A stretch of 32,122 bases of DNA from Thermoplasmata archaeon (GTDB taxonomy: Archaea > Thermoplasmatota > E2 > UBA202 > JdFR-43). Each line of letters opens with the position of its first letter. Position 1 is the first letter of the stretch. Both the position numbers and the translations under genes were made by a program. The notes beneath the pieces were generated by a model, which worked only from the letters and a program-made list of their open reading frames with translations, was not told the origin of the DNA and made no database searches. The stretch lies in assembly GCA_008297865.1 (NCBI GenBank), contig VBQI01000002.1, positions 1 to 32,122 of the forward strand, written 5' to 3'. This document shows positions 27,572-30,376 of this stretch, in pieces.

Positions 27572-30376
27572 CTAAAGTTTCTCTCCACAGTTTGGGCACT
27601 CCTTTATACGAGTAGCACAGCTTTTATGAAATGTTGCTCCACACTTACATTTAACAATTTTAGCCCCTTCTTTAAATCTTCCCAAACATACTATGCACTT
27701 TTCTTCTGCCTCGCCTCTTTCAATCAAAATCTCCTTTTTTCTAAATATGGAAAAATATGTTACAAGGGTAACAAAGGCAATTATAACAGGGATAAGAAAG
27801 TAAAGGTAATTTAGTCCACCTGCCGACGCAGCTTTTATAAAAATAATCCCTTCATTGTTACCCTCATTTTTTTCCTCCTTTTCATTCTTTTCATCCACCA
27901 CAATTTTTATTTCGTTTTCTTCATCGATATCCACATAAAATCCTATTTCTTTTTCCTCATTGTATGAGATATTGAAAATTGAAAAATCAATAAGTTCATT
28001 ATTTAAAAATATGGAGCAATTTACATTTTCAGCGTATCCTCCTACATTTTTTATTTTTACCTCCACATATATCTTATCTCCTTTTTTAGCATCTTTTGGT
28101 GTATAGCTAATATTTTCCACAATAAAGTCAGGAAGATAGATGCCTATTTGTTTTACTGTCTCGTTTTTGTTTCCTGCATCGTCGGTAATAGAAAGTTTTA
28201 CTGTATAATTCCCCTCCCTTGCATATGCATGTATAGGATTTTTTTCATAGCTTATATTTCCATCCCCAAAATCCCAAGTGTAGTTTACTATAGCGCCGTT
28301 AGTATAACTGTTAAAATGAACGATGACTCCAGGAGATGGATGTGTAGGTGTAAAACCGATGGAAACAATTGGGATGACACTGCTGAAATAAGCTACAATA
28401 TGTTTATCTGAATCCATTATAATTGTAGTTGAATTATTGGTATCGCCATTACTCCAATGGTCGAATTTATAGCCGGCATTTGCATGAGCGGTTAACTTCA
28501 CAACAGTTCCTTCATCATAAACTCCTCCTGCTGGGCTTACATAACCTGCATCGCTTGGCTCAACGGAAACGGTTAAGGTATAACCAAATTTTTCAAAATT
28601 GGCAACAATGCTCTTATTGCCATCTATTGTAATATTTATTGTTGTTTGACTTCCTGTAGCATCTCCACTCCAATGGTCGAAAACATAGCCTTCATTAGCT
28701 ATGGCAGTTAACGTTACAACAGTTCCTTCATCATATATTCCACCAGATGGACTAACATTTCCCGCTCCCACAGGATTTATTGCAACTGTGAGGGTATATT
28801 TTATAGCAGTTGTTGTAAAACTCCATACCGGAGAAGTTATTGTAGCTACGCCATCGCTAACAATAACATACCATTGATAGGTTGTTGAGTGTTGTAAGTG
28901 GGACCATGTTATGCTTGCTGTATTTCCTGAGGCAACTGTAACATTTCCTATCTCTGAGTTACCATTATAAAATGATACTGTAAGCATATCTCCATCGGTA
29001 TCGTTAACAAAAATGCTTAAAGTTGGATTTATTGAAACATCAATACTTCCATTTTCAGGCACGGGATTTTTTACATATGGAGGACTATTGATTCGGAATT
29101 GATACAATCCTGATTTATTTCCATTTCCAGAAGCATCTATTGCGTAGATATAAAAAGAGTAGTTTCCTGCATAGCTATATGTTCTGTTACAGAAATAAAC
29201 ATTTCCAGTGTTGTTCATGCTTAAATTTATATGGTTACCATTAGGATATGTTACATTTAGAAAAACATCAGCAACGCCAACATTATCTTCCACAATGCAT
29301 GAAATATTAACTTCCCTTCCTTTATTTTGCAATGGCGTATAGATAACGGAGGTTATAACTGGAGGAACATCATCAATTATTTCAAAGCTGTATGTAGCAG
29401 ATGTATTTACATTTCCGTTGACATCTTTTGCAAATATGGAAAAGTTATACAATCCTGGCGAATATGTAGTATTGTAGAAGTAAATGTTTCCAACATTGTC
29501 CATTGTAATGTTATATACAACGCCATCACTTATTCTTACTTTTGCAAACTCTACACCAAAATCGTCAGTGATTATGCATGAAATATTTACGTATTCATTA
29601 ACACATGCAACAACATTGGTTATTTCAGGAGGAGAAACATCTGTAATTTCAAATGAATAATTAAGATGGCCAATATTTCTAGCATCATCTTTTGCCTTTA
29701 TTTTAAATGTATAGTTACCTGCTGGCAAATTGTTATAAGCTTTCATACTTTCATTGCTCCAATTGCTCCAAGTATCGTAGCCTTCGAGCATATATGAGAA
29801 GATGATATTCGACGATGTATCATCGGTAGCATTCCATTCAAAATAAACATTTCTTACATGTATGACTGGTGAGGGAAATTCAATAAGCGTTATTACTGGA
29901 CTTGTATTATCAACTATTATACTCCCATTTATAATTTCTATTTCGGTAACATTTCCCTCCTCTGTTATAATTGCATTTGTAATATTTATATATGAAATCC
30001 CATCCTGAATAGCTTCAAAATATATAATAGCGAGGATCCCGCTCTCATTTGTTGCATTTGCTGAGAAGGCAACGATGTTGCGTATACTCCCATTTTCGTT
30101 ATCTATTTTTGTAAAATTTTCTATAATATCGTTTGCCCAATACTCAAACATATGACCATTTACAACCTCTTTTGCCCGCAATACATCTTTATTGAATATG
30201 ACATCGCACTGTGCACCTCTTATTGCATCAGATGGCTGTATGGAAATATTGACTGCTATGGTTTCGCCTGGTTTTGTTATGCTAACAGGGGGCTCTATTC
30301 TCATTATGTGTTTACCTTCTGCACTGACAAAAAATAAGATAAGAAGAAAGAAGAAAAGGAAAATCAGCTTTCTCAT
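27572..30376 (-). CDS. Large surface protein: cohesin-like, Ig-like, two bacterial-repeat domains, PKD, CARDB, TM, cytoplasmic RING/PHD-like zinc finger
   Basis: Signal peptide; PPVSITKPGETIAVNISIQPSDAIRGAQCDVIFNKDVLRAKEV (cohesin-like); duplicated YTLTVAINPVGAGNVSPSGGIYDEGTVVTLTAIANEGYVFDHWSGD; YTWDFGDGNISYEKNPIHAYAREGNYTVKLSITD (PKD); FIVENISYTPKDAKKGDKIYVEVKIKNVG (CARDB); TM; CIVCLGRFKEGAKIVKCKCGATFHKSCATRIKECPNC. Confidence 0.85.
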   Translation of the reverse strand: MRKLIFLFFFLLILFFVSAEGKHIMRIEPPVSITKPGETIAVNISIQPSDAIRGAQCDVIFNKDVLRAKEVVNGHMFEYWANDIIENFTKIDNENGSIRNIVAFSANATNESGILAIIYFEAIQDGISYINITNAIITEEGNVTEIEIINGSIIVDNTSPVITLIEFPSPVIHVRNVYFEWNATDDTSSNIIFSYMLEGYDTWSNWSNESMKAYNNLPAGNYTFKIKAKDDARNIGHLNYSFEITDVSPPEITNVVACVNEYVNISCIITDDFGVEFAKVRISDGVVYNITMDNVGNIYFYNTTYSPGLYNFSIFAKDVNGNVNTSATYSFEIIDDVPPVITSVIYTPLQNKGREVNISCIVEDNVGVADVFLNVTYPNGNHINLSMNNTGNVYFCNRTYSYAGNYSFYIYAIDASGNGNKSGLYQFRINSPPYVKNPVPENGSIDVSINPTLSIFVNDTDGDMLTVSFYNGNSEIGNVTVASGNTASITWSHLQHSTTYQWYVIVSDGVATITSPVWSFTTTAIKYTLTVAINPVGAGNVSPSGGIYDEGTVVTLTAIANEGYVFDHWSGDATGSQTTINITIDGNKSIVANFEKFGYTLTVSVEPSDAGYVSPAGGVYDEGTVVKLTAHANAGYKFDHWSNGDTNNSTTIIMDSDKHIVAYFSSVIPIVSIGFTPTHPSPGVIVHFNSYTNGAIVNYTWDFGDGNISYEKNPIHAYAREGNYTVKLSITDDAGNKNETVKQIGIYLPDFIVENISYTPKDAKKGDKIYVEVKIKNVGGYAENVNCSIFLNNELIDFSIFNISYNEEKEIGFYVDIDEENEIKIVVDEKNEKEEKNEGNNEGIIFIKAASAGGLNYLYFLIPVIIAFVTLVTYFSIFRKKEILIERGEAEEKCIVCLGRFKEGAKIVKCKCGATFHKSCATRIKECPNCGEKL
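28390..28800 (-). repeat. Tandem intragenic duplication of an approximately 65-70-aa domain
   Basis: Two adjacent units with GxVSPxGGxYDEGTVVxLTAxANxGYxFDHWSxGD and similar DNA (CAACAGTTCCTTCATCATA in both copies). Confidence 0.75.

Follow-up and report, generated by a model that had tools for sequence, protein, structure and literature searches.

The window (the whole stretch of DNA analysed, 32,122 nt) carries on its minus strand a gene for a large surface protein that ends in a cysteine-rich finger. The gene and the parts of its product are listed below, each with the evidence on which it rests.

27572..30376, minus strand: surface-protein gene with the finger, 934 aa, single-pass (open reading frame and translation)
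30320..30376, minus strand: signal peptide, residues 1-19 (hydropathy)
29887..30319, minus strand: N-terminal cohesin-like domain (AlphaFold model and Foldseek cohesin matches, probability 1.00)
29378..29539, minus strand: bacterial Ig-like domain, residues 280-333, best of three stretches (Pfam PF19077)
28589..28789, minus strand: InlB B-repeat-like domain, residues 530-596, best of two (Pfam PF18998, E 2.6e-29)
28157..28312, minus strand: PKD domain, residues 689-740 (Pfam PF18911, E 3e-18)
27851..28132, minus strand: CARDB domain, residues 749-842 (Pfam PF07705, E 1e-9)
27743..27799, minus strand: transmembrane (TM) helix, residues 860-878, followed by RKK (hydropathy 2.43)
27587..27697, minus strand: RING-type C4HC3 finger, C894 to C930 (Pfam PF13639/PF14446, invariant ligands, AlphaFold/Foldseek RING-H2 match)

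The product is a type I membrane protein and the finger is its cytoplasmic tail. Hydropathy, the RKK that follows the helix and the distribution of N-glycosylation sequons agree on the single TM helix and the cytoplasmic C-terminus claimed in the original prediction; a C-terminus outside the cell, which would have refuted it, did not appear. All 41 sequons lie N-terminal of the helix and none C-terminal of it, which supports a cytoplasmic tail, and basic residues directly follow the helix in each of the 10 homologues examined. The ectodomain is probably glycosylated. Its predicted cohesin/Ig/PKD/CARDB composition was recovered as well, the Ig, PKD and CARDB parts by Pfam (matches to Big_13, the InlB-type Flg_new_2, PKD and CARDB) and the cohesin by predicted fold only. 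For the latter, the first 144 residues past the signal peptide gave an AlphaFold model with a pLDDT of 74, for which the PDB fold search was headed by cohesins (E 2e-7), Archaeoglobus fulgidus 2xdh among them; neither Pfam nor a further sequence search gave a cohesin match for this N-terminal region.

The finger lies within the final 41 residues, four of which follow the last ligand. Its ligands are C894, C897, C910, C912, H917, C920, C927 and C930 (nt 27697 down to 27587), spaced x2, x12, x1, x4, x2, x6 and x2, exactly as in the ending C-x2-C-x12-C-x1-C-x4-H-x2-C-x6-C-x2-C claimed at the outset. The last long spacing, between ligands 6 and 7, had been described as short; it is x6, which falls inside the RING range of x4-48 (PMC11354881). 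The C4HC3 order, also correctly predicted, is the form reported for prokaryotic RINGs. The assignment to the RING-CH/PHD type did not stand: the protein gave no match to the RING-CH profile PF12906 at E up to 1 and scored 14.2 bits against the PHD profile PF00628 (E 0.047), under the cut-off of 24, so that both assignments were rejected. The finger fits RING profiles. The isolated tail reached 33.5 bits against PF13639, above the cut-off of 27.3, and the full-length protein 26.1 bits, just under it. Against PF14446 (Prok-RING_1, cut-off 29.1) the tail with its linker scored 31.6 bits and the full-length protein 24.6. The best PDB sequence matches of the finger were RING E3 ligases.

The predicted structure points the same way. 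For the tail, AlphaFold gave a model with a pLDDT of 82, built from an alignment of two sequences, that of the window protein and that of one named relative, Thermoplasmata archaeon AUK247 (L019), retrieved by a contig scan with a single-sequence query. The top Foldseek PDB matches were RING-H2 E3 ligases, many of them solved with an E2 (probability 1.00), and not the unrelated zinc ribbon that would have spoken against the original prediction. The highest TM score was that of RNF12-Ube2d2 (6w7z, 0.81), with 0.79 for RNF13-E2~Ub (5zbu), RNF13 being of the PA-TM-RING family; Ark2C and RMR1 were other RING-H2 matches. The domain being so short, the best E-value was only 1.9e-3. Within the limits of such a model, a RING fold, rather than a RING-CH or PHD one, is supported. 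That the finger is some other treble-clef zinc module (PHD, RING-CH or zinc ribbon), resembling a RING by chance, could draw on the weak PHD match and on the C4HC3 order and the x4/x2 spacing around the histidine, which are PHD-like; with PHD under its cut-off, PF12906 unmatched, the tail over the PF13639 cut-off and a fold search that yields RING-H2, we regard this as highly improbable.

None of the eight ligands varies among 13 relatives, which argues that the finger pattern is not due to chance; alignment positions G7, K10, G21, A22, A29 and R31 are invariant beside them. Pairwise identity between genomes is 57-83% for the finger against 31-63% for the ectodomain, making the finger the best-kept part of the protein. 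Matches at E <= 0.01 were found in 16 of the 59 genomes searched, two of them (G026 and G049) weak and probably unrelated. A profile search placed the finger in 14 of the 80 genomes of the class, every one within the window's order. Across the phylum the pattern is kept in 81 of 86 finger segments; there are always four residues between ligands 4 and 5 and always six between ligands 6 and 7. Other families, too, have proteins in which a TM helix is combined with a C-terminal finger, as in G126, G147, G360, G111, G105, G087 and G123. In two genomes, G003 (L021) and G015 (L023), the surface-protein reading frame is interrupted immediately ahead of the TM helix, and the helix and finger are intact in another frame. 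Weak PF13639 matches in genomes without the TM finger proved to be 36- to 41-residue LIM-like or unrelated zinc proteins and not missed members. One such conserved protein of 36-41 residues, MKCAYCNKEI...YWHRECFKKWLRKKGC, scores as half a LIM domain; within the window's family at least seven genomes have it (L107, L108, L110, L111, L114, L115 and L117).

The original prediction had proposed a search of the genome for genes of a ubiquitin-like protein (Ubl), E1 and E2. Relatives of the window's genome do possess an operon for E1 (ThiF, PF00899), Ubl (PF00240), E2 (PF00179) and the JAB protease (PF01398), in the order E1-Ubl-E2-JAB, or Ubl-E2-JAB with E1 elsewhere, which in the window's family usually adjoins an apparent class I lysyl-tRNA synthetase gene. 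The Ubl, of the ubiquitin family, has 77 residues and a C-terminal PDPEGG; some genomes add a short extension beyond the GG. The E2 profile was above its cut-off in 16 of 22 genomes around the window's lineage and in none of 14 well-known control genomes. Seven genomes of the window's order have the E2 without the TM finger, which counts against the ligase reading discussed below. In G075:C4 (L067:1438-2157) and G366 (L168:6330-7007) Ubl and E2 are fused in one protein, the gene of which adjoins JAB and E1 in G075.

For the window's own genome (G000) the outcome was partial: profile searches of this 81%-complete assembly gave no E1, E2 or operon-Ubl match, and only the 3' end of a JAB gene was recovered. 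It opens contig C67 (G000:C67:89-192; TQPFHAAVVIDPIKMEVK / KAFRLHNDECIEIPYAVF, with one apparent frame change near the contig end) and is convergent with a class I lysyl-tRNA synthetase gene, the same arrangement as in relatives. Because this remnant lies at a contig end and in the conserved position, the operon is very probably present yet cut by the assembly. G015 and G016 show the same contig-end arrangement with a full JAB gene. True absence of the operon from these three genomes was rejected, given the contig ends and the JAB sequence found there.

The finger and the E2 tend to occur together. Of 390 genomes from the phylum, 82 matched the finger profile and 81 had the E2: 61 had both, 21 the finger only, 20 the E2 only and 288 neither (Fisher test, odds ratio 42, p = 1.4e-35, not corrected for phylogeny). 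Family-level counts were 22/4/6/22 (p = 3e-6, again without correction for relatedness), and the completeness of the metagenome-assembled genomes compared varies. Genomic linkage is more telling than co-occurrence for the association of the finger with conjugation. In five genomes from three families the finger gene stands in line with the E2 genes, the gene order being E1-RING-Ubl-E2-JAB in G083 and G094, RING-E1-Ubl-E2-JAB in G099 and RING-E2-JAB in G110 and G115; in a fourth family (G362 and G366) a divergent RING gene lies beside the Ubl-E2 fusion gene. The operon RING of G083:C3 (L163:1164-10631) and G094:C3 (L164:619-10170) is the end of a reading frame of 3155-3183 residues, in which Pfam, tested in G083, found no domain besides the C-terminal finger. 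G083 shares with the window's group 57% identity in the Ubl, 59% in the E2 and 52% in the finger, which indicates the same system. In the window's own family the operon is not adjacent to the finger gene, a point against the ligase reading, and the neighbourhood of the latter gave no clear functional signal, as it differs between genera.

The fingers were also compared at residues that matter for ligase function. The E2-contact position C1+2 is Val in the window's finger and hydrophobic (I/V/L/F) in 77 of 81 fingers, and a Pro follows ligand 7 in 62 of them. The linchpin position past the last Cys is Gly in the window's finger; Arg is found there in none of the 81 fingers and Lys in five, and a basic residue stands at +2 beyond the last ligand in 35. 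The Trp of the RING helix is absent from the window's finger, and V, I or L takes its position in 49 of the 81. The missing linchpin Arg and the replacement of the helix Trp weaken the case for catalytic stimulation without excluding it, and are the main reason why we grade the ligase reading no higher. They also suit a finger that is a RING-fold interaction module devoid of ligase activity, tying the surface protein to a partner in the cytoplasm or to another zinc-finger protein. Such a module would be consistent with the five f19 genomes that encode a similar TM-plus-finger protein and have no E2 match, and with the C-x2-C-G finger variants of f32 and f40, found in large soluble proteins, also without E2. 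It remains an unlikely explanation in our judgement: linkage to E1, Ubl, E2 and JAB genes in four families and so strong a co-occurrence with E2 would not be expected of a general scaffold, and among solved structures E3 ligases have the closest folds. Ligase activity, which had been called speculative with scaffolding equally possible, thus remains an inference, but the two no longer stand level, the ligase now being better supported than plain scaffolding.

Three known systems invite comparison. The closest archaeal one is the RING protein srfp of Caldiarchaeum subterraneum, from a lineage that also has Ubl, E1, E2 and JAB (PMC5654768, PMC6043591) and whose E1/E2/RING cascade is active in vitro (PMC5654768). 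In that RING, ligand 3 is shifted by two residues and there is an extra Cys (PMC5654768), which the C-x-C-G arrangement of the window's finger resembles; a hydrophobic residue at C1+2 is common to both. The linchpin and helix Trp positions both mattered in the Caldiarchaeum RING (PMC5654768), and here the two part company: srfp is small, operon-encoded, equipped with W58 and R69 and proven active, whereas the window's finger lacks both Trp and linchpin and is the C-terminal part of a large surface protein with one TM helix, encoded, in the window's group, away from the operon. The PA-TM-RING proteins (RNF13, GRAIL, plant RMR) have the layout of the window protein, in which a signal peptide and an ectodomain are followed by a single TM helix and a RING on the cytoplasmic side, and the best structural matches include the RINGs of RNF13 and RMR1. 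However, the definition of that family includes a PA domain in the ectodomain (PMC4021871); none is found among the Pfam matches of the window ectodomain, and the window protein is for that reason not a member. It differs further by its cohesin/Ig/PKD/CARDB ectodomain, the position of the finger at the extreme C-terminus, the C4HC3 order and the x6 between ligands 6 and 7. Prok-RING_1 (PF14446) is likewise a prokaryotic RING-type finger with a C-G...[FY]-H-x2-C core. Its consensus has C-x2-C at ligands 3-4, where the window's finger has C-x-C, and the latter sits behind the TM helix of a surface protein.

Starting from what computation gave directly (the RING fold, the topology, the conservation, the operon of the lineage and the genomic linkage of the finger family), we favour, with some reserve, a membrane-anchored RING E3-like protein. 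Its zinc binding, E2 binding and ligase activity are inferred, in the absence of biochemical data, as are any substrates and any control by the ectodomain. The finger would recruit the lineage's own Ubl-loaded E2 to the membrane's inner face, where it would promote Ubl transfer onto proteins close by, whether in the membrane or in the cytoplasm. The role of the ectodomain might be to localise the protein, to bind partners or to act as a trigger, and the Ubl would be removed again by the JAB protease. The same E2-coupling evidence would also suit a finger that serves as a handle for self-regulation, through which the protein would bind E2 for its own ubiquitylation and so for its removal or sorting. 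Several lysines in the tail and the contrast between a conserved finger and diverging ectodomains are compatible with this; no data separate self from other substrates, the protein would still be a RING E3, and we give the idea little weight. Extending the membrane-anchored E3 reading, one may speculate, doubtfully, that Thermoplasmatota possess receptor-type ubiquitin ligases, single-pass proteins in which the state of the ectodomain controls cytoplasmic Ubl conjugation, with an origin independent of, or before, that of the eukaryotic PA-TM-RING proteins. If true, surface-coupled ubiquitin signalling would not be a eukaryotic invention, and would occur in a phylum outside the Caldiarchaeum and Asgard groups. 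A short expressible finger domain and a defined E2 allow the ligase reading to be tested directly.

The archaeal RING ligases described so far in the accessible literature are small proteins from Caldiarchaeum and Asgard archaea (PMC6043591, PMC5654768). Our literature search, which left subscription papers outside its scope, turned up no description of an archaeal RING anchored in the membrane, nor of an E1-Ubl-E2-JAB operon in Thermoplasmatota; because of that scope, the novelty of a membrane-anchored archaeal RING in this phylum is provisional. The finger family also comes in other arrangements. In G116:C136 (L231:7802-13765), three fingers of the family follow one another near the C-terminus of a 1987-aa protein. 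In f25 and f38 (e.g. L198:573-1358 and L171:5376-5882), proteins of only 170-290 aa combine the finger with an N-terminal membrane helix; this is a second way in which the finger is membrane-bound, and it co-occurs with E2.
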